Below are positions 2,569 to 22,827 of a DNA stretch of 24,016 bases, piece after piece. A model generated the notes under the pieces. The model saw nothing but the letters and a program-made list of their open reading frames with translations, had not been told where the DNA came from and ran no database searches. Within the stretch, counting starts at the first letter, position 1. Each line of letters starts with the position of its first letter. The stretch lies in IMG/VR virus record IMGVR_UViG_3300042868_013043, positions 1-24,016 of that record. One strand, 5' to 3'. Position numbers and translations under genes: made by a program. Origin of the DNA: a virus.

Positions 2569-3249
2569 ATGCCAGGTAGAGTTTTAAATTTTTTAGAGTT
2601 TTCTGATAAATATTCAGGAGGCGAAGGCAATGAATTTAGTTTAGATGATATGAAGAATGCTTCTTCTAATTTTGAAGAAGGATTTGATGATGAAACATAT
2701 GACCTTCCAGAAATAGGAGCAAATAGACCAGTATCTGGTAGTGACATGGGAATGGCTACACCGGCTTCGCCAGGAGAAGAAGGTGCTCCTGATTTTTCAA
2801 CAGATTTATCACAAGGAATGAGTGCACCATCTGATGAGGAACCGATTGAAGGTGAAGAATCAATAGAAGATGAAGATGCTGCAACACAAGCAGTTTCAGA
2901 CTCAGGTGATGATGAGGACGAAGATGAAGAAGACGAATCAATTGAAGGAGAAGAAGAGGAAACTGATGATGAGGAAGAACTAGAAGAAGGTAATCCAGAA
3001 TCTGGAGCAAATCCTAAGAAAAAAGTAGACGAATCGATCACTTTGGTTAAAGGATTTAGCCAATTCATTAATGAAAATTATTTTGATGATGAATATTCAG
3101 AAGAGTATCCAGAAGATGAATATCCTGAAGATGAATATTCTGAGGATGAATATGGAATGTACCCTAACGATGAAGAAGAAGTATGTGATTCTTGTGGAGA
3201 AGCACCTCTTTCGAATGAATATGGATATTCTTGCGGATGTAATATGTAA
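2569..3249 (+). CDS. Acidic, low-complexity protein with FINE motif, Tyr/Asp/Glu repeats and C-terminal Cys cluster
   Basis: 226 residues, very rich in Asp/Glu. Near the N-terminus is VLNFLEFSDK (residues 5-14), a loose version of the window's recurring motif. A full copy, VKGFSQFINE followed by N, is at residues 160-169. After it comes a tandem EDEY(P/S) repeat and then a CxxC...CGC tail (C206, C209, C222, C224) that could bind a metal. Cleavage after FINE would release the acidic N-terminal 169 residues from a C-terminal peptide. Strong acidity recalls T4 prohead-core proteins such as gp67, but homology is not claimed. A candidate late promoter lies just upstream. The long serine-rich ORF on the opposite strand is a composition artefact. 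Confidence 0.8.
   Translation: MPGRVLNFLEFSDKYSGGEGNEFSLDDMKNASSNFEEGFDDETYDLPEIGANRPVSGSDMGMATPASPGEEGAPDFSTDLSQGMSAPSDEEPIEGEESIEDEDAATQAVSDSGDDEDEDEEDESIEGEEEETDDEEELEEGNPESGANPKKKVDESITLVKGFSQFINENYFDDEYSEEYPEDEYPEDEYSEDEYGMYPNDEEEVCDSCGEAPLSNEYGYSCGCNM
3088..3153 (+). repeat. Tandem coding repeat (GA[AG]GATGAATAT, 12-15 bp units)
   Basis: Imperfect units of 12-15 bases built on GAAGATGAATATYCT, encoding EDEYP / EDEYS / EDEYG after a first DEYSEEYP. The reading frame is kept. This kind of repeat can vary in copy number between relatives. Confidence 0.7.
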
Positions 3250-4925: not shown

Positions 4926-5285
4926 ATGTCGTACGTTAAAAGTTTTAAGAGCTTTCAAAATGCTGAAAAGAAAGCAGCTGACGAAGTAAAGGCTGGGGCA
5001 AATCCTACTGTTGCTGAACAGGCAACTGCTACTCAACCAGCAACTCAACAAAATACTCAGAATCAGACGACTCAGCCAGCTCCAACTCAACCAGTAGTTG
5101 AGGCAGACCCTGAAGTACAGGCTGCTCGAAAAGCATTAGCTGACGCATCAGCTACTCGTGATAGAGTAGTCGCAGCTAAAAAGACTGAACTTGAAAGATT
5201 AATAGCTGATCAGGATGCAATAGTAAACCGATCAAATGTTAGTTTAAATACTGCTCTACAAAAAGCGGCTGCCCCTAAACCTTAA
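4926..5285 (+). CDS. Small Ala/Gln/Thr-rich protein with N-terminal targeting-like motif
   Basis: 119 residues from ATG at 4926, preferred over the TTG three bases earlier. The N-terminus VKSFKSFQNA followed by E (residues 4-13) has the spacing of the recurring motif but without the last Glu in place. The middle is a disordered Thr/Gln/Pro/Ala tract (TATQPATQQNTQNQTTQPAP). The C-terminal half is a charged amphipathic helix (AARKALADASATRDRVVAAKK), likely coiled coil. The stop TAA overlaps the next ATG (TAATG at 5283-5287). It is probably a head-associated or core protein, by position and motif only. Confidence 0.7.
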   Translation: MSYVKSFKSFQNAEKKAADEVKAGANPTVAEQATATQPATQQNTQNQTTQPAPTQPVVEADPEVQAARKALADASATRDRVVAAKKTELERLIADQDAIVNRSNVSLNTALQKAAAPKP

Positions 5286-5728
5286 TGGAACGAAATATAA
5301 AAACATATCAACAATTCATCAATGAATCAACTAAGGAAGTTGTATACCCTACTAATTTTACGGGTATGGTGCAAAGCGCACTTGGCGGACTATATACTTC
5401 GGTTATTGCAATAGCTAGAGAATTAGCAAACGAAAAAGCAGCTAGGAACCCCAGTAGATATAGCGGCGAGATACAAGAAGTTGACATAACTCGAGCAATG
5501 AATATGATTTTTCATAGTGATTGGAAAAAGAAAATGAAATCTCAAGCATTAGATCAAGTAATGAGACCATCTATCGAAAGAGCAGGAAAACAGGATGCCG
5601 TTGTTGCTAAAAAGAATCAACGTGCTATGGGAAGAATGATGGGAGATAAAGAGTTCAATGTAAATATCGATAAATCTAGTGTACGTTTTAGTGATAAAAA
5701 AGGAGGAGGAACTGGTTCAAATCAATAA
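5285..5728 (+). CDS. Virion-associated candidate with canonical capsid-targeting-like N-terminus
   Basis: 147 residues. The N-terminus IKTYQQFINE followed by S (residues 5-14) is the closest match in the window to the T4 internal-protein targeting sequence MKTYQEFIAE, where gp21 protease cuts after the Glu. The rest is helical and basic, with a hydrophobic helix around residues 28-50 (MVQSALGGLYTSVIAIAREL) and a Lys/Gly-rich end, reminiscent in charge of injected DNA-binding internal proteins. The start is fixed by a TAATG overlap. It is the last of four small motif-bearing genes before two probable structural genes. Confidence 0.75.
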   Translation: MERNIKTYQQFINESTKEVVYPTNFTGMVQSALGGLYTSVIAIARELANEKAARNPSRYSGEIQEVDITRAMNMIFHSDWKKKMKSQALDQVMRPSIERAGKQDAVVAKKNQRAMGRMMGDKEFNVNIDKSSVRFSDKKGGGTGSNQ

Positions 5729-5735
5729 TTAGAAT

Positions 5736-6470
5736 ATGACAGAAGTAGAATTAATACAGGATATAAATGATGAGATTACTTTTTCAGGAGCTTTACCATA
5801 TGCTCTTCCTGAAAAAGAGATTAAACGTATTATATTAAACGATTGTAAATTCTTTTGGGATAACTGGAAGTATGCTGTTGAGAGTAGATATTTGTTATTG
5901 CCTCAAGAGCTGTTTACTAATTCTACGTTTACAAAGTTTAGACAGATTCAATTACCCGATTGTGTACAATTCGTAGTTGATTTCAAAGAAGCTAAAGGAG
6001 GTTCTATATTTGCAACGCTTGACCGAGATTTTGCTGAACAAAAGTTTATCGGTTCTGAAATATTTTTAACTCCTTTCTTGGGAGAAAGTATTATGTATAG
6101 AACAGTAATGTTTTCTTTCCTAGATCTTACTAAATCTATGATGATTGACAGTATTGCATACGATTATAACAAGAATACTAAATTATTGGGAGTCTTGGGA
6201 AGAACTCCTAAGACAGCAGCAGTATTACGAGTATTTAAAAAGATTGAACCTGAAAAGTTATATGAGGATGAATTATTTCAAAGATATGTAAGGGCTCATG
6301 CAAAAGTAAGACTCGCTCATATGTTACAAACATTTGATTACACTCTACCCGGAGGAGTAAAGGTTAACTATCAAAACGTAGTTGCCGCTGCTGAAAAGGA
6401 AATGGAAGACGTTAAGACCATGATGAAAGGTGAAAATACCACAGATTGGATGTTCTTAGCTCATTATTAA
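5736..6470 (+). CDS. Probable virion structural protein (neck/connector or tail), 244 aa
   Basis: 244 residues, well-folded composition. The N-terminal region is helical (TEVELIQDINDEITFSG...LPEKEIKRIILNDCKFFWDNW) and a mixed alpha/beta body follows. The C-terminal helices carry LYEDELFQRYVRAHAKVRLAHML and LPGGVKVNYQNVVAAAEKEMEDV, a pattern I associate with large-phage virion proteins of neck or connector type, but I cannot assign a T4 gene number. It lies 7 bases after the motif-bearing block and 15 bases before the gp25-like gene, supporting a late structural operon. No membrane segment or signal. It lacks the FINE or RLYE peptides, unlike the genes before it. Confidence 0.75.
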   Translation: MTEVELIQDINDEITFSGALPYALPEKEIKRIILNDCKFFWDNWKYAVESRYLLLPQELFTNSTFTKFRQIQLPDCVQFVVDFKEAKGGSIFATLDRDFAEQKFIGSEIFLTPFLGESIMYRTVMFSFLDLTKSMMIDSIAYDYNKNTKLLGVLGRTPKTAAVLRVFKKIEPEKLYEDELFQRYVRAHAKVRLAHMLQTFDYTLPGGVKVNYQNVVAAAEKEMEDVKTMMKGENTTDWMFLAHY

Positions 6471-6485
6471 TTTAATCTTATTATT

Positions 6486-6863
6486 ATGGCAAGCCTTAGA
6501 GATTTTTACACTAGACCACCAGAAGATCCTAAATATTTGGATGACATGGTAGAACTATCCAATGATATAGAAGAAGCTATTCAACAGGTAAAGATGACAC
6601 TATTTACTAAAAAAGGAGAAGTATTAGGTGAACCTGATTTTGGATTAGATTTAGATTCATATTTATTTGAATATGATGTTGATCCATTTGCATTAAGTTC
6701 AGAAGCAATGCTTCAAGTAAACAAGTATGTCTCTGAATCTAAAAAGAGACAGATAACTGTCGCTCCATCAGTTTACCCAGATGATAAATCAAATAGAGAC
6801 ATACTTGTTCTTTTAGTTGATATACCTGAAGCAAATGGTCAATTTGCGTTATTCTACGATTAA
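6486..6863 (+). CDS. 25: Baseplate wedge subunit, gp25-like
   Basis: 125 residues, close to T4 gp25 (132). The diagnostic stretch is at residues 39-63: LFTKKGEVLGEPDFGLDLDSYLFE, as in the GPW/gp25 family, preceded by a helix (ELSNDIEEAIQQVKM). gp25-like proteins form the conserved wedge core of contractile-tail baseplates, joining the sheath-initiation region, and are shared with type VI secretion TssE. It is the last gene of the + block and its stop overlaps by four bases the stop of the convergent gene at 6860. The leader has no Shine-Dalgarno. This gene is the clearest sign that the phage has a contractile tail. Confidence 0.88.
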   Translation: MASLRDFYTRPPEDPKYLDDMVELSNDIEEAIQQVKMTLFTKKGEVLGEPDFGLDLDSYLFEYDVDPFALSSEAMLQVNKYVSESKKRQITVAPSVYPDDKSNRDILVLLVDIPEANGQFALFYD

Positions 6864-7246
6864 TCAATATCCGCATTACTTGTCATATAAGCAACTAGAG
6901 TTCTTAAGTTTCTCTGATAATTGCTTAAGTTTTCAATTCCTATTTTTACCTTTTGAATTCTTTTTTGAATATCGTTATGATCTAAATACAGAGAAGGCAA
7001 TAGGATATCATTTTTAGAATCTGAAATAAACGCAGCTTCTCTTAATTCAGCATTTGAATAAAGTTTCTTGCCATTATCATCTAACGCATTATTGATAATT
7101 GTTTTAATCTCAGAAGTGCGTTCAGATATTTCATTATCTACTTTCTGTAATTCATCATTGAATTCAATCAGGGACTCCTGTAATGTAGCGATTTCAGTAG
7201 GTAGACCCAATAGTCTTTCTGAAAATTCTTTTATTTTTTCTTTCAT
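6860..7246 (-). CDS. Coiled-coil protein (128 aa), possible recombination accessory
   Basis: 128 residues, almost entirely helical. The first 50 residues have heptad-like spacing (LLGLPTEIATLQESLIEF then ELQKVDNEISERTSEI), a central segment has LYSNAELREAAF, and a second long helix ends NLSNYQRNLRTLVAYM. That layout (helix, NaelReaa, helix ending in an LR-type tail) is one I have seen in small phage proteins near single-strand annealing or recombination genes, but this is recollection, not a firm assignment. The start ATG at 7246 lies only three bases after the T-run of a terminator hairpin, so how it is transcribed is unclear. It overlaps the gp25 stop by four bases. Confidence 0.7.
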   Translation of the reverse strand: MKEKIKEFSERLLGLPTEIATLQESLIEFNDELQKVDNEISERTSEIKTIINNALDDNGKKLYSNAELREAAFISDSKNDILLPSLYLDHNDIQKRIQKVKIGIENLSNYQRNLRTLVAYMTSNADID

Positions 7247-7249
7247 AAT

Positions 7250-7284
7250 AAAAAAGGTTTAGTACTAAAATACTAAACCTTTTT
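7250..7284. terminator. Bidirectional terminator after the portal gene
   Basis: 9-bp perfect stem (7256-7264 with 7271-7279), 6-base loop, six A before and five T after. In the minus direction it follows the portal stop at 7308 and its T-run ends three bases before the start codon of the next gene. Confidence 0.85.
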
Positions 7285-7307
7285 CTATAATTAAATTATA
7301 TTGGATA

Positions 7308-9026
7308 TTATAATCCGCCTTCTCCTTTAGTTTCACCACCATCAATGGTTTCACTACCACCGCCTTCAGCTGGTGCTGCTTCTCCAGCTGGTGCGGCTGC
7401 TCCTCCAGCAGCAGGGGCACCACCAGCAGCAGGGGCTCCTCCAGCGCCAGCCGCTTCTTCAGCTTCATCAGCTTCTTGATCAAACCATTTCTTATTAGAT
7501 TCAATATCTGCTTCATTCATCTTAAGCTCTTCTCTAATTAAATACTCAGTAGCAAAGTATGGAGTTCCATCATCTTTCATTACTCCTTTCTTAGCTTGGA
7601 ATGATGCAATTCGTTTAGCTTCTATTTCATTTTTCTTCATCTCTTCAAAGACGTTGTCATTATTGTATTTTACACCAATAGCATTATTAAATTTATGGTC
7701 ATCTGCTAAATCTGGAAAATCCAAACACATTTGTAAATACCAAGGTTTAACAATAAGTTCAGAAAAAGCTGATCGTAAACGATTGACAAATTTTTGATAA
7801 CGTACCTCTTCCCTAGTTATACCCTCAGCGTTAAGAGTAAATGCTCCCATTCCAGATTGGCCTTCCCAACGTGAATATGGAATCTTAGAGTCCATTTTTA
7901 ATTTTTTATAAAAATAATTAAGCAATTCAGAACCAGAAAGATTTGGGCCAGGTGTTGCAAGAGGCTCTATTTTTACTTGCTGATTCTGGTCATTTATTGG
8001 AGTAACATAATTCTTATAAAATAAGATATTTGGTTTTCCATCTACTTGAAGCTCTCCAGTATCTCCATTAAAGTAAATGTCTTCTTTAAATAAGTTTAAA
8101 AATTCTCGAACATCTTCCTGCCCTTTTTGAAAACTTTTACTTCCGATCGGAACTGTTGTAGTTAAACGGATTGGCGCATTCATAACGTGCCAAATAACTT
8201 TACTGTGTTCGATTATTCTAAGTAAGTTGAATGATCTAATTAATCGCTCAACAAATGAGATTCTTTTTGTTCTAAAATGATTTGAATATGAAATATAAAT
8301 TACTTGAGAATCATTTAATACTCTAGTTGAGCCCGTAGCTTGATCATATTGTAACCATTGCATAAAGATCTTACCTTTATTGTCTTTTTGTAATTGAGGT
8401 GCAATACTCGCTGGGTCAAGCTCCTTAAATCCTATAATTTCCTTAGGCTTTTCTAAATCATCATATATGATCTCAAAACTAAGGTGTCCTTCAATTAAGA
8501 ATTGAAATGCATATTGCCATGCTGCGATTCCTTCTGCAAATCCCCAAGCAGTATACATTTTTTCAAAGTTATCATTATATTTCCTAACTACTTTTTCTTG
8601 AAAGTTTAAACGTTCTTCTTTAGTATCCCCACGATAAAGTATTTTACCAGTAAGATCCTTTGGGTATATAAATCGATTTTCGTCATCATATACAATCATA
8701 TCATCGACGATTGTTTCCAATACAAATTCAATTTCACCATTTGATGCAACGTCTCGTAATCGTTCTCTTTTTACAACATAATCTAATTGGAAAAAAGCAA
8801 GAGCCTTTGTTCTTAATTGAGACGTTGTATCTGAGATGGCCATTGAAAACTTCATCAAATCGTCATTCATAGTAGATCGACCGGCCCTAGCCTGAAGTTG
8901 ACTCTCGATAAAACCTATCGCTTGTGAGTTTTTAAGCAAAAGGTCCTCATGTCGAGTACCAAACTTACTTAGGTTAGAAAGAGCACTTCCTACTCTTGAA
9001 CCTGATGTATTTAAAAATCCTGCCAT
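7308..9026 (-). CDS. 20: Portal (head-tail connector) protein, gp20-like
   Basis: 572 residues, somewhat longer than T4 gp20 (524). The T4-type portal core is clear: VLETIVDDMIVYDDENRF (about 102-119), a region around LDPASIAPQ, then RISFVERLIRSFNLLRIIEHSKVIWHVMNAPIR, and GITREEVRYQKFVNRLRSAFSELI, corresponding to the T4 [24 protein letters not shown] region. The dodecameric portal sits at the unique vertex, nucleates prohead assembly and passes DNA. The C-terminal 50 residues are an Ala/Gly/Pro/Glu low-complexity tail with PAAGGA repeats not found in T4. The start (TAAAATG) directly follows the upstream gene's stop. A terminator follows. Confidence 0.93.
   Translation of the reverse strand: MAGFLNTSGSRVGSALSNLSKFGTRHEDLLLKNSQAIGFIESQLQARAGRSTMNDDLMKFSMAISDTTSQLRTKALAFFQLDYVVKRERLRDVASNGEIEFVLETIVDDMIVYDDENRFIYPKDLTGKILYRGDTKEERLNFQEKVVRKYNDNFEKMYTAWGFAEGIAAWQYAFQFLIEGHLSFEIIYDDLEKPKEIIGFKELDPASIAPQLQKDNKGKIFMQWLQYDQATGSTRVLNDSQVIYISYSNHFRTKRISFVERLIRSFNLLRIIEHSKVIWHVMNAPIRLTTTVPIGSKSFQKGQEDVREFLNLFKEDIYFNGDTGELQVDGKPNILFYKNYVTPINDQNQQVKIEPLATPGPNLSGSELLNYFYKKLKMDSKIPYSRWEGQSGMGAFTLNAEGITREEVRYQKFVNRLRSAFSELIVKPWYLQMCLDFPDLADDHKFNNAIGVKYNNDNVFEEMKKNEIEAKRIASFQAKKGVMKDDGTPYFATEYLIREELKMNEADIESNKKWFDQEADEAEEAAGAGGAPAAGGAPAAGGAAAPAGEAAPAEGGGSETIDGGETKGEGGL
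7363..7446 (-). repeat. GC-richer coding repeat in portal tail (18-bp units)
   Basis: Two adjacent 18-base units (7405-7422 and 7423-7440) share CCAGCAGCAGGGGC, flanked by diverged copies. They encode PAAGGA repeats. The local G+C is much higher than the surrounding sequence, which suggests recent repeat expansion. Confidence 0.7.
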
Positions 9027-10506: not shown

Positions 10507-11645
10507 TACACCCAAATCAAATCGAACGGAGATTCAGAAAAGTACTGAAGGAGAAATAAATTAAATGATTCTTGATCTAGTTCTGGTTCAAACGGCCTCA
10601 TAAATAGAAAAAGATCATTTACGTCCTTTATTATAAAACGAGCAGTTGCTTGTTTTATTTTATATTTTTTAGACAGATCATTAAATACTCGATTCCATAA
10701 AAATACACGGTATCCTTTTTTAATTAGATCAATCGACTGCGTTTTACCTGCTGAATCACTATCAAATAAGATTAGAGTATTTGATAGTGATAATAGATTC
10801 TCAAGAAGAAGGCGACTTTTTGAAATTCCAGTAGTGGCAATTGAATTTATTAAGAACATTGCATCAATTTGTCCTTCAGTCACCATTATTGGTTTTGAAA
10901 AATCAACATTTAATACATTGAAATAATTATTAAGGTTATCTATATCTGAGAGTAGGTCATCAGGCAGCGTTCGAACTAGGCCATTCTTCTTTAGCTCTGA
11001 ATAATTTTTAATTAAGTATTTTGGCCCTTCTTCATTATTGAGTCGTCTTACTGCAAAACCTAATACTTTTCCTGATCGATTATCTAGATTAAACAAATAA
11101 ATCTTATCATCTCGAGTATCAAAATAGCTGCATTCATTAAATGCTGGAATATTGGCAAGACCCCTTTTTGCGATAAACTTTCCTACATTAGATAAAGGAT
11201 CGGCTTCATCACAAGGAACAAGGGAAAATCGCTCAGCTAAATAATCAATCCTAAGTAAATGATCAGTTGCATTTTTATTAATTAATAATTCAATTAATGA
11301 CCCTCTCTTCTTTTTAGTGGTCTCAGCGACCCACTTTACTTCAGTTGACTTGATGTCAGGTACACCTAAAGAATATTTTAATGAATAATTAGAAATGAAT
11401 TTTTCAGTAGAAACTTTTACTGAACATCCATCATTATAGCATCGATAGAAACCTCTATTTGGATAAAGATTACCTCTCTTCTTTTTAGGATCATGTGCTG
11501 AGTCTCCACAATATGGACATGCAAAATTTAATTTATCACCAGATTCATATACTTCCTGTTTTAACCGATTGTCGGGGAACCTCTTTTTTAAGAGGTCCTT
11601 AACAAAAGTTAATATCGAGTACCCAGTTAATAAATCAAACTGCAT
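10506..11645 (-). CDS. 61: DNA primase, DnaG/gp61-like
   Basis: 379 residues (T4 gp61 is 342). An N-terminal zinc-binding domain is visible: C43, C46, C69 and C74 (CPYC and a later C-x4-C), with FYRCYNDGC. A Toprim domain follows: KPIMVTEGQIDAMF with catalytic E257, a short spacer, and LILFDSDSAGK with D295 and D297. Primases of this class make RNA primers on the lagging strand and work with a replicative helicase, absent from this window. The start ATG lies inside the end of the polymerase gene (11-base overlap), so primase and polymerase are probably made together. No late-type promoter lies upstream. Confidence 0.92.
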   Translation of the reverse strand: MQFDLLTGYSILTFVKDLLKKRFPDNRLKQEVYESGDKLNFACPYCGDSAHDPKKKRGNLYPNRGFYRCYNDGCSVKVSTEKFISNYSLKYSLGVPDIKSTEVKWVAETTKKKRGSLIELLINKNATDHLLRIDYLAERFSLVPCDEADPLSNVGKFIAKRGLANIPAFNECSYFDTRDDKIYLFNLDNRSGKVLGFAVRRLNNEEGPKYLIKNYSELKKNGLVRTLPDDLLSDIDNLNNYFNVLNVDFSKPIMVTEGQIDAMFLINSIATTGISKSRLLLENLLSLSNTLILFDSDSAGKTQSIDLIKKGYRVFLWNRVFNDLSKKYKIKQATARFIIKDVNDLFLFMRPFEPELDQESFNLFLLQYFSESPFDLIWV

Positions 11646-13068
11646 CTTCTTCTAATTGAGGAACTGGGTTAGCTTTTTCTTTTTTCTTAGTCAGCCGCTT
11701 TAAATATTTTTCTAATTCCGGTTTAGGAACAATTGTTGTATTTAAGCCATATTTTGTGATTATTCCTAAATATTCATGAAAGTCTGTTTCGGGTACATCC
11801 GCTTCAGGATTACCGATAACCTTCCAAAACTTTTCAGGAACTTCTACGTAGTCTAAACTGTCTTGATCAACTACATATAGCGGGTAGATGTCAGCACCAG
11901 TAAGTACTTTTTTGCTTTTTACTGTAATTACCTCAACTGCTCTTTTTAAGTTAATATCAAGAGAACTAATCTTCATTGCGGTTAACAACCTATTTACTGG
12001 TTCAACAATTAAAGAAAAGAATTGAGCATCAATATCCATTAAAAGAGCAATCTCATCAGGGTATGTTCCAGGAGAATAAGCAAATACATCATGTCCTCCT
12101 TCATTCTTTTCAGGATTACAGTAATAGAATTTTATTTTATCTTTTTCTCTAATCTTAGGATACTTTCCAACTAAATCATTTTTAATAAGGATATGATTGT
12201 AAATAGCAGCAGCTCTTGGAAAGATTGAGATTCCTTTTCTAAGCTCAAGCTTAGCTTCATTTGCTACATACTTATTATAGATCCTAATGTTAAAGTTAAA
12301 TGCCAATTCATCTGGATGCATTGAAACAGCCTCAGCCTTTAAGTCAGTAAGCTTTGGAATAATATCTCTTTCTAAATCAAGACGTTTGCCTCTATCCATT
12401 ATGAATGATGTAAGTTCAGTTAATTTATTTCTAGCCCAAATCGGATATGACCCTTTTACTGGTTCTAGACCTTTAATAATTAGATACCTCTTATCTTGTG
12501 GTTCAAGTTCATACGTTGGATTAGGCTCATACGCTACTCGAATCGCATAGTTTTTCTTTTTAAGCCAAATACCTGTCTCAGAAAGGTTTTCTAACTTAAA
12601 TTTTAATCGATTCTTAGTATTAAAAACTTTTCCATATTTTTCAAAACACTGGTCAAAATAATTAGAGAGTCGATATCTGTCAATATTAATACAGATATTT
12701 AATGCTTCATCTTTTGTAAAATCAGCGCCAATGATAGAATCAAGAGCGGAATCAAATTGGACATAAATAGAGTCAGTATCAGTATAAATCGCAGCCTCAT
12801 CTTCAATTTTATTAATCGTGTATTGATCGATTCCTAAAAGTTTATGTAACTCAACGTCAGTATGCCATTTTTCTAAAAAATAATGGTTTACCGCTTTAAT
12901 CGAAAACTTGATCAAGTCTTGTCCCTGAAGGGTAATTGACTGAGCGATGTCAGGATTATAAAAATAAAACCATTTGTTACCAAATGCTCCATAAATTGAG
13001 TTAATTAAGATCTTTATTGCATTCTGCTTTAGATCAAGTTTTTTGATGTTTTTCGCTTTATCTTCCAT
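11635..13068 (-). CDS. 43: Family B DNA polymerase, C-terminal fragment of a split gp43
   Basis: 477 residues holding only the second half of a T4-type polymerase. Motif B is right at the start (KILINSIYGAFG, NSIYG at 23-27), and motif C YTDTDSIYV has D97 and D99, equivalent to the paired catalytic aspartates of RB69 (621/623). Next come LENLSETGIWLKKKNYAIRV, where T4 has GFWKAKKRYALNV, and a thumb-like C-terminus. The N-terminal exonuclease domain and motif A (DxxSLYP) are missing. A stop codon lies two codons before ATG 13068 and the gene upstream runs the other way, so the other half must be encoded elsewhere. The C-terminus also looks longer than the matching part of T4 gp43. Confidence 0.9.
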   Translation of the reverse strand: MEDKAKNIKKLDLKQNAIKILINSIYGAFGNKWFYFYNPDIAQSITLQGQDLIKFSIKAVNHYFLEKWHTDVELHKLLGIDQYTINKIEDEAAIYTDTDSIYVQFDSALDSIIGADFTKDEALNICINIDRYRLSNYFDQCFEKYGKVFNTKNRLKFKLENLSETGIWLKKKNYAIRVAYEPNPTYELEPQDKRYLIIKGLEPVKGSYPIWARNKLTELTSFIMDRGKRLDLERDIIPKLTDLKAEAVSMHPDELAFNFNIRIYNKYVANEAKLELRKGISIFPRAAAIYNHILIKNDLVGKYPKIREKDKIKFYYCNPEKNEGGHDVFAYSPGTYPDEIALLMDIDAQFFSLIVEPVNRLLTAMKISSLDINLKRAVEVITVKSKKVLTGADIYPLYVVDQDSLDYVEVPEKFWKVIGNPEADVPETDFHEYLGIITKYGLNTTIVPKPELEKYLKRLTKKKEKANPVPQLEEDAV

Positions 13069-13803: not shown

Positions 13804-14568
13804 ATGGCTAGAAAAACAAGTAAATTAGGAAAAGATGCAATTGAGGATCTTGAAAATTGGGAAAGAGATCGTGAGATCCTTGAAAATACTAAAGTATTTA
13901 AGACTGGCATCGATATTAAATGCAAATCCAAAGCGCAAAAGGATGCATTAAACGCTATTGAAAACCACGATATTTCTATTGTAACTGGTCCTCCAGGAAC
14001 AGGTAAGACCTATCTTTCTTGTGCAAGAGCTCTAAAATACATAAAGGATGATCCTGGAACATATCGAAAGATTGTTTTAATAAAATCAGTTAATGTTCCT
14101 AAAGATGAGGAGATAGGTTATCTAAAAGGTACGATGGAAGAGAAGATGGAAATGTACATGTATCCATTCATCTCAAACTTCCATAAAGTAATAGGTAAAC
14201 CTGCAACCGAGGCGCTAAAAGCAAATGGCACAATTGAGATTTTACCAATCAAGTTTGCATTAGGGGTAACATTAGATGAATCGATTATATTAATTGATGA
14301 AGCTCAACAAATAGGTAAAGACCATCTACATACATTAATGACTAGAATAGGTACAAATTCTAAGATGGTATTCTTAGGAGATATAAAACAAAAATCAGTA
14401 AACAAAGGTCAAAAGAGTGCATTAGAAGTTTTAATTGATTATTTTGGAGAAATAGAAGAGATTGGAATAGCTCAATTGACAAAAGATGATATCGTTAGAC
14501 ACCCTATTATTAAGAAGCTAGAAGAGATATTTGAAAAAATTGAAAATGCAGAGAAATTAAATAAATAA
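13804..14568 (+). CDS. phoH: PhoH-like P-loop ATPase
   Basis: 254 residues from ATG 13804; the TTG at 13798 is less likely because it overlaps the previous stop. Walker A GPPGTGKT is at 62-69, Walker B IILIDEAQ at 161-168, then MVFLGDIKQKS (sensor) and a final NAEKLNK. The stretch KSVNVPKDEEIGYLKGTMEEKME is typical of PhoH. PhoH proteins are ATPases related to superfamily 1 helicases, common in large and marine phages; the cellular role in phage is unsettled, with RNA or nucleotide metabolism proposed. It is the middle gene of a three-gene operon, overlapping the next start by one base (TAATG). Confidence 0.92.
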   Translation: MARKTSKLGKDAIEDLENWERDREILENTKVFKTGIDIKCKSKAQKDALNAIENHDISIVTGPPGTGKTYLSCARALKYIKDDPGTYRKIVLIKSVNVPKDEEIGYLKGTMEEKMEMYMYPFISNFHKVIGKPATEALKANGTIEILPIKFALGVTLDESIILIDEAQQIGKDHLHTLMTRIGTNSKMVFLGDIKQKSVNKGQKSALEVLIDYFGEIEEIGIAQLTKDDIVRHPIIKKLEEIFEKIENAEKLNK

Positions 14569-14999
14569 TGAATATGCTAAAGGACTTTAATGATTTCATA
14601 AATGAAAATTTATCAATTGATTTAGAATCAATGGGAAGTGACTTAAGATTTGCAAATACTGCAAGTAAAAATACAATGAATATTAAAAAGAACACGAATT
14701 ATCTAAAAAACGGTCGAGCTATAAATAGCGTAGTTACTGTGACTACTCAAGGAAAACAATATAATTATCAAGTATACATAATGGGAAAACCATTTAACTT
14801 AAAATCGTTGGAGCCTACTGCAAATGATTCAGTTAAAATCACATATTATACAGGTGAAATGGCTAAGTCAAACTCTAAGAAATATGAAACTAAAACAGTT
14901 GTAAAATCACTAGATATGCTTAAAGATTATGTTGACGACTTGAAAAAAGGAGTAAATATTGATCCTCTACTTGTCCCATTCAAATTAATTAGAGTATAA
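14568..14999 (+). CDS. Targeting-motif protein downstream of phoH
   Basis: 143 residues. The N-terminus LKDFNDFINE followed by N (residues 4-13) is a clean copy of the recurring motif and ends in I-N-E. The rest is a beta-rich domain (INSVVTVTTQGKQYNYQVYIMG, VKITYYTGEM) with a C-terminal helix and a short tail. No family is recognised. The first ATG, coupled to phoH by TAATG, is chosen; a second ATG is two codons later at 14574. The gene is followed at once by a terminator. By the motif it should be packaged into the prohead, even though its operon partner PhoH is an intracellular enzyme. Confidence 0.75.
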   Translation: MNMLKDFNDFINENLSIDLESMGSDLRFANTASKNTMNIKKNTNYLKNGRAINSVVTVTTQGKQYNYQVYIMGKPFNLKSLEPTANDSVKITYYTGEMAKSNSKKYETKTVVKSLDMLKDYVDDLKKGVNIDPLLVPFKLIRV

Positions 15000-17551: not shown

Positions 17552-18139
17552 ATGAAGAAGATAAAGGAACTTTATGTATTTGACTTAGATGAAACCTTTT
17601 TGAGGGTTCCGAGCTATACAACTAAAAAGCTAATTGAGGAGAAACATCCTTACATAGAGTTTAAGGACCCATATGAATTCTACGATAATCATTTGTCTCT
17701 ATGTGACGATATGAACCATATTCAATTAATAGAGCCGGTATTTAGAGAATGGGAAATTGCAAATGCTGATTTAAGTTGTGCACATGCATTAATTACGCAC
17801 CGAGTAAAATCACTAAAGGATGTCATTCTTTCACTATTAAAGAAAAAAGGAGTATCATTTGATCATAACTATTTTTTAGGACGAGTTAGTGAAAAAGTTT
17901 TAATTATTGATCACTTATTAAAAACTGAGTATGATCCAACGTTAATACAAACAATTAAGATATTTGAGGATTCGATTGATCAAATTTATCGATATCAAAA
18001 GTGGTTTGCAGATAGTCTAAATAATTTAGAAATAGACTATTCAAAAATTGATATACAATATTGGATAGTAGATAAAGCTAGGATGTTTAGGATAAATGAA
18101 ATAGAATTAAGTGACAAACGACGAATAACTTTAATTTAA
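17552..18139 (+). CDS. HAD-superfamily phosphatase-like protein, RNA-repair (SAK) type
   Basis: 195 residues. The HAD motif I is near the start: YVFDLDETFLRVP with D11 and D13. A motif II-like strand follows (CAHALITHRVKSLKDVI), then LLKKKGVSFDHNYFLGR, a Lys (E/K-K after LGR) and motif IV IKIFEDSIDQIYRYQKWF. The layout (L-TxR, then gv.FD, then I.IFED....Y..F) resembles the HAD domains found in Swiss-army-knife RNA repair proteins. HAD enzymes use the first Asp as nucleophile to remove phosphates, which would fit a 3'-phosphatase. The next gene starts one base after its stop. Substrate is not known. Confidence 0.75.
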   Translation: MKKIKELYVFDLDETFLRVPSYTTKKLIEEKHPYIEFKDPYEFYDNHLSLCDDMNHIQLIEPVFREWEIANADLSCAHALITHRVKSLKDVILSLLKKKGVSFDHNYFLGRVSEKVLIIDHLLKTEYDPTLIQTIKIFEDSIDQIYRYQKWFADSLNNLEIDYSKIDIQYWIVDKARMFRINEIELSDKRRITLI

Positions 18140-18140
18140 T

Positions 18141-18749
18141 ATGCCATTAATACTTATAGAAGGTCATCGACATAGCGGTAAGACATATCTTATTGAAAAA
18201 TTTATAGAACAAAATAAAGATCCTAGAGTTCACTATTATAAATTTCAATTTGCTAAATATATTGATGAATTAGGAATGAGAGATCAGGATACTGGCGCAG
18301 GCGTTCACTATTTTAGTATTGCAAATGTTCTTACTATACTTGAACTAAATCAAAGTTTAATGTCAGATAAGATCTTAATATTTGATCGCTGTATATTTTC
18401 AGCATATGTGTGGTCAATTTATAGAGAACGAATGGACACATACCGACTATTGGATGAATTTAAAAGGATACTCAATAGTCCTCTTTATCAAAATGTAAAA
18501 GTAGTATATGTTAATCGAAATGAAGAAATTAATGTAGATAAGAGAGAAAAGGACTATTTTAGCAATTTTGAAAATGCGGATAAAGAAAAAGAATTATTTG
18601 AAAGGATATTTTCAGAATTTATGCCACAGATCATAGATTTAGACAAAAATAACGAATTTAATAGAATAACTAATCATTTTAATGAAGAGAGTTCTGTTCA
18701 ATTTAATCAAATACTAACCGGACTAATAAATAGTACGCCGATTTCTTAA
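18141..18749 (+). CDS. P-loop kinase, thymidylate/deoxynucleoside-kinase-like
   Basis: 202 residues. Walker A GHRHSGKT is at residues 8-15, right at the N-terminus. ILIFDRCIFSAYVWS in the middle gives the DR-x3-S signature of thymidylate and deoxynucleoside kinases, followed by VKVVYVNRNEE and a LID-like region DKREKDYFSNFE. These kinases phosphorylate nucleotides or nucleosides; a polynucleotide 5'-kinase is the alternative, suggested by the adjacent HAD phosphatase, since T4 Pnkp joins those two activities. The ATG follows the HAD stop by one base, so the two proteins are made together. The end of the gene overlaps the candidate promoter of the next. Confidence 0.8.
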   Translation: MPLILIEGHRHSGKTYLIEKFIEQNKDPRVHYYKFQFAKYIDELGMRDQDTGAGVHYFSIANVLTILELNQSLMSDKILIFDRCIFSAYVWSIYRERMDTYRLLDEFKRILNSPLYQNVKVVYVNRNEEINVDKREKDYFSNFENADKEKELFERIFSEFMPQIIDLDKNNEFNRITNHFNEESSVQFNQILTGLINSTPIS

Positions 18750-18772: not shown

Positions 18773-19336
18773 ATGGCATCTAAATATACACTAAACTATT
18801 TACAGTATATTAATGAATCTGAGGACGCTAGTCCATTAAAAGGATATCCGGCAGGACAGATAATAAGTCGAATTGAAGAGCTTATGGAAGTAATATCTGA
18901 TAAAATACGATTTGGAGTACCATCTGACAACTTAGGAAGAGCAACTACTTATAGAGATGCAAATGGGGCTATACAAAGAATTAAAGATATTTTACATTAT
19001 TATAATAGTAAAAATGAAAAGGTTAGATTTTATTGCTGGTCAGTAAGTTATGCTGGAAGCTGGAAAGCTACCAAAACTCTTAAAGATAAGATAAATTCAG
19101 CTGGAGGATTTGGTGAATCTTCAACTGAAGATAGCACTTCATTAAACATAAACTTGAAAAAATTAATTGATTACTTTACTGAAAACCCAGAAGATTCTGA
19201 TAATTTACAAAGTATATCAATTAGTATTGATTCTCCAAGTATTAGAAAAGCAATGTCTGCACCAGATAAAGATTTAGAAATGACTGATGAACCTCAGCAG
19301 ACTGAACAAAAACCAGAAGCGTCAACTGAAGAATAA
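18773..19336 (+). CDS. Targeting-motif protein (187 aa)
   Basis: 187 residues. The N-terminus TLNYLQYINE followed by S (residues 6-15) is a clear copy of the recurring motif ending in I-N-E. The body is helical at first (GQIISRIEELMEVISDKI), then beta-like (EKVRFYCWSVSYAGSW), and ends in an acidic, Gln/Glu/Pro-rich disordered tail. No family is recognised. It sits between the kinase and the ligase-NMNAT fusion; the 16-base gap to the latter suggests they are co-expressed. If the motif is cut, mature protein would start at Ser16. Confidence 0.75.
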   Translation: MASKYTLNYLQYINESEDASPLKGYPAGQIISRIEELMEVISDKIRFGVPSDNLGRATTYRDANGAIQRIKDILHYYNSKNEKVRFYCWSVSYAGSWKATKTLKDKINSAGGFGESSTEDSTSLNINLKKLIDYFTENPEDSDNLQSISISIDSPSIRKAMSAPDKDLEMTDEPQQTEQKPEASTEE

Positions 19337-19352: not shown

Positions 19353-21221
19353 ATGGCAGGAATAAACAATTTACGTGAAGTCTATGAAAAAAAGGGTGAA
19401 TCATTCTTAACTGGACTTCTAAATAACTATGTCATAATCAACGAAAAAGTTGATGGTGCATTCTTTGGTGTAAAAAAGACACAAGAAGACACATTTAAAT
19501 ATTTTAAGAAATCTGGCGAAATTACATATGTTGATCAGGTTTTAATGAAATATTATAATCCAGCATTGACTCACTTTAATAATATGCCTGAAGAAAAAAG
19601 GCAACGTATTCCTGCGGATTTTTTCTTTGGCTTTGAATATTTTACTAGAGGAGACTCTAAGTCAGTAAAAAGAAGCGAACTTCCTAAAAACGGACTAATT
19701 CTTTCATACATACAACGGCTAGACGCGAGCGGTAAACCCACTGAAACTCTACAATCAAAGGAGGAACTTACTAGATGGGCAAACTATTTAGATGTTGAAG
19801 CTCCGCCGATTATATTTGAGGGCAAGTTAGATGATGAACAAAAGAGTAAAATCTTGGAATTTGTATATACTGAGTCATCAAACCTTGAAGAAAAATTTAA
19901 GACTACTTCTTTTACTAAATATATTATTTCAATACTTTGCCCAGAAGATAAAACAGAAGATATAACAAATTCTGAGTTAGATACTATTATTTTTAGGTTT
20001 TATGGAGGAGACAATAGCGAAGCATTTTTAGCAAAACTAGTAGATCCGATATTTCAACAAAGGACTAGTGAAAACAAACCAAAAGTAAATTCATCACAAG
20101 ATTATATTTGGTTAATCGTAATTGACTTAATGAATCATTTTGAAATGTATGACATTGATCAATTACGAGAGATGATAGATGAAGATGGTACATTTGAAGA
20201 AAAATATATTGATTTAATCAATAAAATATTTAAAGACTTTTTAAAAGACTATTTTGTAAAATACGACGGTCTTGCACTTGAGGTACCTGAATATTTAAAA
20301 CGTCCAGAATTTGAATTAGACTTAAATTTAGTTAGAGATCCTGAAACAGTTGACCTTATTGGAAAGAATGAAACAAATACTGAAATCTATAAGATATTAC
20401 TTAACTTCTTTAGAAAAGTAAGAAAAAAGTCTAGTGCAGGATTCTTTACCCCTGATATGGTATCGCAATTAAATTTAATTGTAAGTAAGATTAAGAACAT
20501 AATAATGGGTGATGCGGTATATGAAGGTCTTTTTCCAAGTTTTAGCCAATTTATAGGATCTCCTAGCGATTATTTTGCATTAAGCGAAGTTGAATATGCA
20601 AAGAAAGCAGAAGAGATTAAGGACCCAGTAAAAGTTAATATATTAATTGGTTCATTTCAACCTGTAACGCTAGGCCATATTAAAGCAGCGGAAGCTCTTA
20701 AAAAGAAAAATGGAAACAAGACAGTTTTTGTTGCAATTAAAGGCGAAGGCCAATCTAAAAAGTCACCATTTACGTTAGCAACAACTAAAGTAATGCTAAA
20801 TAAAGTTCAACAGGAATATTCAACCTTAATAGAAGGAATTAGGATTATCCCTAGTGGGCAGTTGGCTGAAATTATTAAGTCATTACGTCCAGACTATGAA
20901 CCTATCTTATGGGGAACAACTGATAGGCGAATGAAGGATTACGCAATTCAAATGGATTACATTAAAAAGAGAGATGTGCCTTTAAGAATATCAAAGGATT
21001 TTAAATTAGTTGAATTACCAAGTTTTGTTAAATCAGAAGAAATAATTGATTTAATTAAAGGTTCTGAGTTTGAACAGTTTAAGAAAATGGTTCCTGAAAC
21101 AATCGTATCTGAATTTTTCAATTTACAAAAGGAGGTTGGAAAAATAGGATCAGTTAAGGAGTCGTTATCTGATTCTAGATTAATTGAAACTGATCTAGAT
21201 AAGAGAGACGATATTATATAA
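19353..21221 (+). CDS. Fusion: ligase-like nucleotidyltransferase + NMN-adenylyltransferase-like domain
   Basis: 622 residues. The N-terminal domain has IINEKVDGAFFGVK with K32-V-D-G35, the KxDG motif I of ATP/NAD-dependent DNA and RNA ligases where the Lys is adenylated; FGFEYF (92-97) resembles motif III and KLVDPIF later may be motif V, while motif IV is weak. Residues 433-442, GSFQPVTLGH, are the HxGH-type signature of nucleotidylyltransferases such as NMNAT and cytidylyltransferases, followed by VFVAIKGEGQSKKSPFTLA. The linker holds LFPSFSQFIGS (393-403), a variant of the window's recurring motif without the last Glu. It might join or repair nucleic acid and handle NAD or another nucleotide cofactor. 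Co-occurrence in one chain is unusual; exact substrates are not deducible. Confidence 0.82.
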   Translation: MAGINNLREVYEKKGESFLTGLLNNYVIINEKVDGAFFGVKKTQEDTFKYFKKSGEITYVDQVLMKYYNPALTHFNNMPEEKRQRIPADFFFGFEYFTRGDSKSVKRSELPKNGLILSYIQRLDASGKPTETLQSKEELTRWANYLDVEAPPIIFEGKLDDEQKSKILEFVYTESSNLEEKFKTTSFTKYIISILCPEDKTEDITNSELDTIIFRFYGGDNSEAFLAKLVDPIFQQRTSENKPKVNSSQDYIWLIVIDLMNHFEMYDIDQLREMIDEDGTFEEKYIDLINKIFKDFLKDYFVKYDGLALEVPEYLKRPEFELDLNLVRDPETVDLIGKNETNTEIYKILLNFFRKVRKKSSAGFFTPDMVSQLNLIVSKIKNIIMGDAVYEGLFPSFSQFIGSPSDYFALSEVEYAKKAEEIKDPVKVNILIGSFQPVTLGHIKAAEALKKKNGNKTVFVAIKGEGQSKKSPFTLATTKVMLNKVQQEYSTLIEGIRIIPSGQLAEIIKSLRPDYEPILWGTTDRRMKDYAIQMDYIKKRDVPLRISKDFKLVELPSFVKSEEIIDLIKGSEFEQFKKMVPETIVSEFFNLQKEVGKIGSVKESLSDSRLIETDLDKRDDII

Positions 21222-21267: not shown

Positions 21268-22827
21268 ATGAGGTTTAATGAATTGGACGAAACCGACAAA
21301 ATCCTAATAAGCGAGACTTATAATAATAAAGAACTTTCATGGGACTATCGAATCAGCTCGCTAGCTGAAAGATTTGAATGTTCAAACCGCACAATCGAAA
21401 ACTGGATATCTAAATTAGGACTAACTAGCAAAACGCTAGAAGAGTCTCCGCAATTTAAGATTGCACAGGCAAAGGAGTATAATAAAAAATCAAAGCGATT
21501 TATTATTACTTGGGCTCAAAACAACACTCCTATTCATAAAAACTTTCTAGAAAATATCAAGTCATATGCGGATTTCATTAATGCTGAGATCCATGTGATA
21601 GCTGGAAGATATAGAAATCCAACGAGTATTTGGACTGCAAATCAAGAGAATGAAGATACTTGGGCAGAGGAGGTACTAGGATATCTTGACGCAAATCGAC
21701 ATGACATTCATAAATATGTTTCTATAATGTCAGATGTTAAGATACAACCAACTGCGGTAAATCCAATGACTGGCTTAGAAGGGCTTAGTGGAATTAATTC
21801 ATGTATATTCGGATCGCCAAAGGTTCAATTAGAAACAATACCAGTATTGGAAGGAAATGCTCCAAAAATGATGGTAACTACTGGTGCATGCACAGTAAAA
21901 AATTATACTGATTCAAAATCTGGTAAAAAGGGAGAGTTTCATCATACTTTAGGCTTTACGATTGTTGAAATTAAAAATTCAGAAATCTTCTTTATGAGAA
22001 ACGTAACAGCTACTGATGATGGAGAATTCACAGACCTTTTTTATAGAGTTATAGATGGAGAAGTAAGCCGAATTGAAAGAGTATCTGCGATAGTTTGGGG
22101 AGATCTCCACTATGGTTGTCATGATAAAAAAGTATTTAATAAGACTCTTGAATTGATGGAGGATATCCGACCTGATCATGTTATTTTACACGATGTGTTT
22201 GATGGAAAATCAATAAGCCATCATGAAGAAAAGGATCCTTTCTTACAATATCAAAAGGAACTTGATGGAACTAATTCATTAAAGAGAGAAATAGATGATC
22301 TTTTAAATGGACTTGATGAATTTAAAGAATATAATACAGTTATTGTTAGGAGTAATCATGATGATTTTATTGACAGATGGTTAAAAAATACTGATTGGAG
22401 AAAAACAGTTACTCCAAAAAACTCATTAGAATACATGCAGTTTTCTTCTGCTATCCTAAGTGGTGATGCACCAAATGGAATTATTCCATGGGTGATAAAT
22501 AATAAATATCCACACTTTATAACGTTAGGAAGAAGCGATAGCTATATTGTTAATGGGTGGGAACTAGGCCAACATGGAGATATCGGTTCAAATGGAAGTA
22601 GGGGATCTATTCAACAATTTAGAAAGCTTAATCGCAAGATTGTTGTTGGACATTATCACTCACCAGGAAGAAAAGATGGAGCACTAGCAGTAGGTACTTC
22701 CACATCATTAAGAGTAGGTTATAACATAGGAGCTAGTGCATGGTTGCAATCGCATGTAATAATACATGAAGATTCTAAAGCGCAACATATTAACTTTATA
22801 AATGGTGAGTATACTACTTTAAAATAA
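21268..22827 (+). CDS. HTH-fused calcineurin-like metallophosphoesterase
   Basis: 519 residues. An N-terminal helix-turn-helix (about 24-52, ISSLAERFECSNRTIENWIS) is followed by a central beta-rich domain. The C-terminal phosphoesterase has the metal-binding set: WGDLHYG (D279, H281), HDVFDG (D309, D312), RSNHDD (N363, H364), GQHGD (H436) and GHYH (H462, H464). Enzymes of this fold include nucleases such as Mre11/SbcD and phosphodiesterases. Fusion to a DNA-binding HTH suggests a nucleic-acid substrate. A similar role has been discussed for the T5 A1 protein, also a large phage metallophosphatase; I suspect but cannot show homology. The leader CTTATACTTAAT has no Shine-Dalgarno. Confidence 0.85.
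   Translation: MRFNELDETDKILISETYNNKELSWDYRISSLAERFECSNRTIENWISKLGLTSKTLEESPQFKIAQAKEYNKKSKRFIITWAQNNTPIHKNFLENIKSYADFINAEIHVIAGRYRNPTSIWTANQENEDTWAEEVLGYLDANRHDIHKYVSIMSDVKIQPTAVNPMTGLEGLSGINSCIFGSPKVQLETIPVLEGNAPKMMVTTGACTVKNYTDSKSGKKGEFHHTLGFTIVEIKNSEIFFMRNVTATDDGEFTDLFYRVIDGEVSRIERVSAIVWGDLHYGCHDKKVFNKTLELMEDIRPDHVILHDVFDGKSISHHEEKDPFLQYQKELDGTNSLKREIDDLLNGLDEFKEYNTVIVRSNHDDFIDRWLKNTDWRKTVTPKNSLEYMQFSSAILSGDAPNGIIPWVINNKYPHFITLGRSDSYIVNGWELGQHGDIGSNGSRGSIQQFRKLNRKIVVGHYHSPGRKDGALAVGTSTSLRVGYNIGASAWLQSHVIIHEDSKAQHINFINGEYTTLK

Follow-up and report, generated by a model that had tools for sequence, protein, structure and literature searches.

A conserved phage protein joining an RNA ligase 2-like fold to an NMN adenylyltransferase-like fold beside candidate RNA-repair genes

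The 24,016-nucleotide stretch of viral DNA analyzed here (the window) encodes a protein in which a module resembling T4 RNA ligase 2 (Rnl2) is fused to a module resembling NMN adenylyltransferases (NMNATs) (Table 1). The pairing of an Rnl2 fold with an NMNAT fold in one protein is real and conserved, and it is apparently undescribed, with no description of an Rnl2-NMNAT fusion found in the open-licence literature. Judged from the residues retained, the active sites of the fusion are partly degraded. We tentatively favor, at somewhat under an even chance, a role in a phage RNA-repair operon, where the protein would bind RNA and seal it, with the NMNAT-like module serving to bind a nucleotide.

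Domain architecture

The sequence-only reading had proposed this two-domain arrangement from two motifs, EKVDG (residues 31-35) and GSFQPVTLGH (residues 433-442). Both lie at these positions of the 622-residue open reading frame, and the proposal held, with the Rnl2 and NMNAT folds matched by the predicted structures. A KxDG motif alone is weak evidence, since 21% of shuffled versions of the window protein contain one (the protein itself has a second at residue 303). The GxFxPx[TH]xGH signature was seen in a fraction of 5e-6 of shuffles and is thus not a chance occurrence. Pfam CTP_transf_like matched residues 430-562 above its cut-off (E 4.5e-8), and Pfam RNA_ligase (PF09414) matched residues 26-176 below its own (E 6.7e-4; 20.3 bits against a cut-off of 27). 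In a profile-profile comparison, residues 27-162 aligned to T4 Rnl2 with an E-value of 0.0022 and an HH-suite probability of only 13%. At the level of sequence comparison, the family evidence from Pfam and from the profile match was confirmed to exceed chance. Searched against the sequences of solved structures, the single window protein gave no significant match, and the family profile gave weak NMNAT matches only (best E 0.0025).

An AlphaFold2 model was built with 51 relatives. Its mean pLDDT was 78 overall and 84 over residues 1-402; the mutual placement of the two domains is unreliable (pTM 0.54, linker pLDDT below 50).

Table 1. Features of the fusion gene and its neighbors in the window
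Feature	Residues	Position in the window	Strand	Remarks
HAD phosphatase, "Swiss army knife RNA repair" type		17552..18139	+	DxDET, THR and EDS motifs
P-loop kinase, thymidylate-kinase type		18141..18749	+	Walker A GHRHSGKT, FDR; phrog_761 E 3.5e-6
Gene directly upstream of the fusion		18773..19336	+	N-terminal capsid-targeting-like YLQYINE; conserved with the fusion in group A
Two-domain gene, Rnl2-like ligase module and NMNAT-like module	622 aa	19353..21221	+	
Rnl2-type covalent-nucleotidyltransferase domain (predicted)	about 1-240	19353..20072	+	VIA Z 11.2
Motif I, EKVDG	31-35	19443..19457	+	Lys32 = T4 Rnl2 Lys35
Motif V region, LAKLVDP	226-232	20028..20048	+	Lys228 = T4 Lys225, Val230 = Lys227
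Helical domain (predicted)	241-385	20073..20507	+	From model secondary structure; appears to stand where Rnl2 has its C-terminal domain
Low-confidence linker	386-424	20508..20624	+	Conserved FPSFxxF(I/V/L)G element
NMNAT/NadD/PPAT-fold domain	425-597	20625..21143	+	VIA Z 16.1; Pfam CTP_transf_like
GSFQPVTLGH, (T/H)xGH signature	433-442	20649..20678	+	Ser434 at the NMNAT Arg position
VKSEEII	559-565	21027..21047	+	Ile565 at the catalytic Arg position
Calcineurin-like phosphoesterase, N-terminal HTH		21268..22827	+	phrog_1745 E 2e-153

Family distribution and selection

More than 70 related proteins on other phage contigs show the same arrangement or parts of it. All members found came from viral collections, their carriers being large tailed phages; when 84,980 genomes of bacteria and archaea were scanned by pattern, no cellular relative was confirmed. 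Four groups can be told apart. Group A, to which the window protein belongs, comprises fused proteins of about 600-650 amino acids, the exception being L017 with 866 amino acids and a C-terminal extension; the more distant group B is also fused (about 600-690 amino acids). The ligase-like domain of group C (L074-L081) starts an open reading frame of 945-1078 amino acids and the NMNAT-like domain lies in the next gene, an adjacency of separate halves that argues for a shared task. Two fused proteins, L080 and L024 (from the 462-kb phage LR756500), fall on the group-C side of the tree. Group D consists of the ligase-like half alone, about 450 amino acids long, in phages of 635-735 kb and on many contigs. 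That group D might be a paralogue of the DNA-ligase-like genes of about 438 amino acids was considered and rejected, as the family profile does not match those ligases. The extension of L017 (gene at 6001-8598) measures about 240 amino acids and looks hydrophobic, and the NMNAT signature of this protein is altered at both GxF and GH (DDFQPITLAH).

Comparison of the window protein with its relatives gave pN of 0.13-0.19 and pS of 0.57-0.91 in both domains. Where dS was unsaturated, dN/dS was 0.07-0.09 for the ligase half and 0.14-0.18 for the NMNAT half; these low values mean that both halves are maintained under strong purifying selection.

The ligase half

The nucleotidyltransferase ligase fold expected for the N-terminal half is the one that the AlphaFold2 model matches, T4 Rnl2 being the top hit. 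VIA aligned the ligase half (residues 1-237) to T4 Rnl2 (2hvq) over 194 residues at 4.0 Å. T4 Rnl2 was followed in the structural-aligner list by Naegleria Rnl, fungal Trl1, trypanosome REL1 and Rnl1; DNA ligases and a capping enzyme ranked lower. Foldseek, run with residues 1-402, likewise returned T4 Rnl2 first (E 8e-8), and all 12 matches at E ≤0.001 were RNA ligases; the alignment to full-length Rnl2, part of the evidence for the helical domain, spans about 350 columns.

Residues were mapped onto T4 Rnl2 by profile alignment for motifs I to IIIa and by eye in the family alignment for motifs IV and V. By this mapping, the window protein appears to keep most of the Rnl2 pocket residues, namely Lys32, Lys53 (Arg55 in T4 Rnl2), Glu95 (Glu99), Asp210 (Glu204) and Lys228, and Gly35 corresponds to Gly38. 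Two residues are lost: the motif IIIa Asp120 is replaced by Tyr119 and the second motif-V lysine, Lys227, by Val230. Among group-A proteins Lys52, Lys53, Lys228, Asp231 and Pro232 are invariant, while Lys32 is present in only 24 of 28, being replaced by Arg in L012, by Asn in L052 and L053 and by Val in L056. Across the family, the loss of the motif-I lysine takes at least five changes on the tree (three of them inside group A), a tree whose root and some long-branch positions are unsure; the rest of the ligase domain is conserved where Lys32 is lost. Group D has Asp (in one case Asn) at the motif-I position, and its motif V lacks the lysine and mostly carries Glu.

The expectation of a ligase with its catalytic residues in place was therefore borne out in part: the fold matches, and Lys32 is gone in at least five lineages. 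Adenylation of Lys32 thus cannot be a family-wide function, nor can sealing be essential across the family. Some archaeal RNA ligases naturally have another residue at the second motif-V lysine, with Val in Pab1020 and Thr in MthRnl, and the motif-I lysine mutants MthRnl K97A and T4 Rnl2 K35A still seal pre-adenylated RNA (PMC3514331). By analogy with these enzymes, the window ligase site could be active, and the relatives without the lysine are not necessarily inert.

The NMNAT half

VIA aligned residues 425-597 to NMNAT and NadD structures over 150-156 residues, with NMNAT, NadD and PPAT all scoring Z 14-16; the PDB matches include the M. thermoautotrophicum NMNAT mutants R11A, R136A and H19A. 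His442 is invariant in all fused relatives. Two signature arginines matter for NMNAT catalysis. The position of the GRFQP arginine is taken by varied residues in group A (Arg in 1 of 27) and by Lys in group B, and the ISxTxVR arginine is absent from both groups. Where the window protein has VKSEEII, NMNATs have ISAS(x)VR; the latter is kept, together with the full GRFQPFTLGH, in L024 (as ISASVVR), in L080 and in group C (as ISASxVR). Since both arginines are missing in the window's group, conversion of NMN to NAD by the window protein is doubtful, as judged from its residues. The window NMNAT half scores below every NCBIfam equivalog cut-off, and NMNAT models lead those matches. The histidine of the T/HxGH motif (His19) is documented for E. 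coli NadD (PMC1249556).

The gene neighborhood

The fusion stands in a same-strand run consisting of a HAD-like gene, a P-loop kinase, a small gene, the fusion itself and a calcineurin-like phosphoesterase, with 1 to 46 nt between neighbors. The HAD gene was assigned through relatives in which PF10307 exceeds its cut-off (L016, E 1.4e-9; L011, E 1.5e-7); the diverged copy in the window stays below it (E 0.074). Genome-wide searches placed a PF10307 HAD gene adjoining the fusion in G001-G004. Pfam matches of the P-loop kinase are weak, and the gene is conserved beside the fusion. The phosphoesterase belongs to the T5 A1-like "DNA transfer protein" family and is the conserved next gene in group A. 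No remaining neighbor in groups A to D had a Pfam match above cut-off.

Repair of damaged RNA had been one of the roles proposed from the sequence, and it gained support from this neighborhood, as the HAD and kinase genes adjoin the fusion upstream in nearly all group-A loci (the L057 locus is truncated where its contig stops). The L052-L054 lineage lacks the HAD gene, and the two distinct proteins aligned from it, L052 and L053, have no Lys32 either; as this is a single lineage, the joint loss is only suggestive. HAD or kinase partners were not found beside the family gene in groups B, C and D.

A scan for late promoters (TATAAATA) gave 1 match against 5.3 expected and does not tell early from late expression; sigma-70 and terminator scans remained at chance level.

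Elsewhere in the window, the DNA polymerase open reading frame (11635-13068, minus strand) matches phrog_262 only at positions 500-840 of 856, and it also matches a 382-residue profile of its own, phrog_1918. Given this C-terminal-only match to full-length phage profiles, two genes probably encode the polymerase between them.

Capsid-targeting motifs

FxxFINE-type motifs number 8 in the open reading frames of the window, where shuffled proteins would give 0.6, and across groups A to C they cluster at N termini. A T4-type prohead protease is encoded in 11 of 12 related records. The window genes with a [FY]xx[FY]INE motif, mostly near the N terminus, lie at 232-414, 411-1577, 2569-3249, 5285-5728, 14568-14999 and 18773-19336.

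The fusion protein of the window lacks an N-terminal FxxFINE-type signal with cleavage at IxE/LxE. Its linker carries only FSQFIG (residues 397-402), an element that is conserved in group A and resembles the phage's capsid-targeting motif minus the Glu. The split NMNAT gene of group C begins with the capsid-targeting-like MENINDLNNFLNEKK, and such a start was present in 4 of the 4 loci read. Packaging therefore seems plausible for group C and is unproven for the window protein. From its sequence, the group-C NMNAT-like protein looks as if it were a polyprotein processed by the prohead protease. The second gene of group C (L074-L081; for example L079 8231-9556) has several INE/LNE sites, at its start, just before the domain and after it. 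Standalone NMNAT/cytidyltransferase-like genes also lie in or beside baseplate clusters (L110, L111 and L112), in Agrobacterium phage Atu_ph07, Stenotrophomonas phage Marzo and Xanthomonas phage X1.

NAD metabolism and other ligases in related genomes

Twelve related records, most of them probably fragments, were searched for genes of NAD metabolism and for further ligases. NadV-type genes were found in 5 of the 12 and none was seen in the other 7; W01 and G008, both with NadV, look like versions of one phage. The group-A records with NadV are G002 and G003, where the fusion is the sole CTP_transf_like gene found. Both of these NadV genes have a PRPP-synthetase-like gene nearby, an arrangement shared with the NARP1 pathway, in which NAD synthesis requires no NMNAT (PMC12774641).

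In two gene rows (L149 580-3633 and L150 3241-6664 (-)), PRPP-synthetase-like, small and NadV/Nampt-like genes follow one another; the L150 row also has a macro-domain-like gene. Either a NARP1-type NAD reconstitution operon or classical NMN salvage is possible for them. In LR756500, the CTP_transf_like match other than the fusion L024 is CoaD-like; this gene (L151 1354-2511, minus strand) encodes a CoaD-like domain followed by another, possibly of HD type by eye, and lies about 9 kb from NadV.

An NAD-dependent DNA ligase is encoded in 3 of the 12 records and in 0 of the 5 group-A records, which are partial genomes. The idea that the fusion serves as the replication ligase was rejected, as a distinct DNA-ligase-like gene with a KLDG motif is present in two group-A records.

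Functional interpretation

In the reading that we favor, a host defence would cut RNA, the HAD phosphatase and P-loop kinase encoded upstream would make the RNA ends ligatable, and the Rnl2-fold half would bind the RNA end. In lineages with Lys32 and Lys228, including that of the window, the ligase half would be adenylylated by ATP and would then seal. The NMNAT-fold half would bind an adenine nucleotide. As the complete signature is retained in relatives, its ancestor probably converted NMN and ATP to NAD; in the window lineage, where both signature arginines are lost, a poorly active enzyme or a module for nucleotide sensing or docking is more likely. We infer RNA as the substrate, the cooperation of the upstream genes and every catalytic step; the label "RNA ligase" is given with moderate confidence, from predicted fold and context. 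The main reason for preferring RNA repair is that SAK-type HAD phosphatases and kinases occur with Rnl1/Rnl2 ligases in the RNA-repair equipment of jumbo phages, as set out by Iyer and colleagues (PMC7824862), and the same kinds of neighbors stand here. The reading is weakened by Tyr119 and Val230 at the two altered ligase positions, by the loss of Lys32 in at least five lineages, by the window HAD copy falling below the PF10307 cut-off, by a kinase that is thymidylate-kinase-like rather than polynucleotide-kinase-like, and by the lack of HAD and kinase neighbors in groups B, C and D. The capsid-targeting motif of the upstream neighbor and the presence of the T5 A1-like gene could equally point to a virion or ejection locus. 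Defining residues of both activities were tested and are in part absent, so the protein is neither a proven RNA ligase nor a proven NMNAT.

The virion setting bears on a rather unlikely alternative, namely that the fusion is a retired enzyme whose two nucleotide-binding folds now serve binding or structure, possibly after packaging in the head and ejection into the host. Incomplete active sites in both halves, the repeated loss of the motif-I lysine and the acidic replacements in group D all agree with such a fate, as do the prohead protease, the excess of FxxFINE motifs, the capsid-targeting-like start in group C, the FxxF(I/V/L)G element of the linker and the distant NMNAT-like genes that adjoin baseplate genes in three phages. 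Against it, the window linker is without the INE cleavage signal, and the invariance of His442, Lys52, Lys53, Lys228, Asp231 and Pro232 in group A goes beyond structural need. We consider it unlikely that the protein is primarily an NAD-salvage enzyme, its C-terminal half adenylylating the NMN made by phage NadV and its ligase-like half being an accessory nucleotide-binding domain. The co-occurrence with NadV in G002 and G003, the lead of NMNAT models among the equivalog matches and the full signature of L024, next to which LR756500 has only the CoaD-like match, speak for salvage; the missing arginines in groups A and B tell against it, as do the 7 of 12 records, themselves fragments, with no NadV in view, and the PRPP-synthetase-like neighbor of NadV, whose NARP1 arrangement needs no NMNAT.

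The remaining alternatives couple the two halves chemically. The sequence-only reading had suggested regeneration of NAD from the NMN that an NAD-dependent ligase sets free. For such recycling within one chain, the protein does contain the two types of domain. The Rnl2 type is an ATP-dependent family, however, only 30 residues precede motif I, which appears to leave no room for an Ia domain (no NMN-binding Ia domain was reported by Pfam for the window protein), and the five group-A records searched, all partial genomes, had no NAD-dependent DNA ligase; the suggestion is therefore not supported, and self-recycling is scarcely credible. It is improbable that the NMNAT-like half acts on RNA 5' ends, giving AppRNA or NAD-capping pppA-RNA with NMN, and passes them to the ligase half. 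Sealing of pre-adenylated RNA by Rnl enzymes without the lysine (PMC3514331) would explain both the loss of Lys32 and the fusion, and the signature arginines missing in groups A and B weigh against it. In its most explicit version, which is quite improbable, the HIGH half would use AMP or NMN to activate or cap the 5' end, leaving the Rnl2 half to bind and seal it, and the ligase lysine would become dispensable. We know of no HIGH-superfamily enzyme that adenylylates or NAD-caps RNA 5' ends, and, if true, lysine-independent sealing or NAD-capping through the HIGH half would be a route not known so far; the missing arginines disfavor it in the window's group.

In large phages, RNA repair and NAD rebuilding are separate enzymatic responses to host defence. 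One conserved protein that joins both folds beside end-healing enzymes suggests that the two may be physically coupled, and the fact that the ligase lysine was lost several times, under otherwise strong selection, raises the question of what role an Rnl2 fold plays when it cannot charge itself with AMP.

Comparison with known systems

A named protein that clearly belongs to the family is UniProt A0A6J5NWC5 from an uncultured Caudovirales phage, with 623 amino acids and 67% identity over the full length; its name, "Cytidyltransferase-like domain-containing protein", covers the C-terminal half only. The cyanophage "cytidyltransferase" families phrog_395 (E 5e-5 with the window protein) and phrog_3041 (E 1e-15 to 1e-14 with L080 and group C) contain a homologous NMNAT-like domain; in the members examined it stands alone or has other partners, and the Rnl2-like half was not seen. 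The RNA-repair sets of jumbo phages (PMC7824862) likewise bring a HAD-SAK phosphatase, a P-loop kinase and an Rnl2-fold gene together in an operon; the window differs in having a thymidylate-kinase-like kinase and a ligase with an NMNAT-like domain, and the portion of that account available to us describes no fusion with an NMNAT.

T4 RNA ligase 2 (Rnl2/gp24.1) shares with the window protein the fold, the motif order I, Ia, III, IV and V followed by a helical domain, and, in corresponding places, Lys32, Gly35, Glu95, Lys228 and an acidic residue 210. The two differ in sequence (about 13% identity), in the Tyr for the IIIa Asp and the Val for the second motif-V Lys, and in that the window family is fused to an NMNAT fold and has no conserved motif-I lysine. 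To the NMNATs (archaeal NMNAT, NadM, NadR and NadD) the window protein is alike in fold (Z about 16) and in the TxGH signature, but it has neither signature arginine and stays below all NCBIfam equivalog cut-offs. The partner domain differs as well, being a ligase fold in the window protein, a Nudix domain in NadM and a kinase in NadR.
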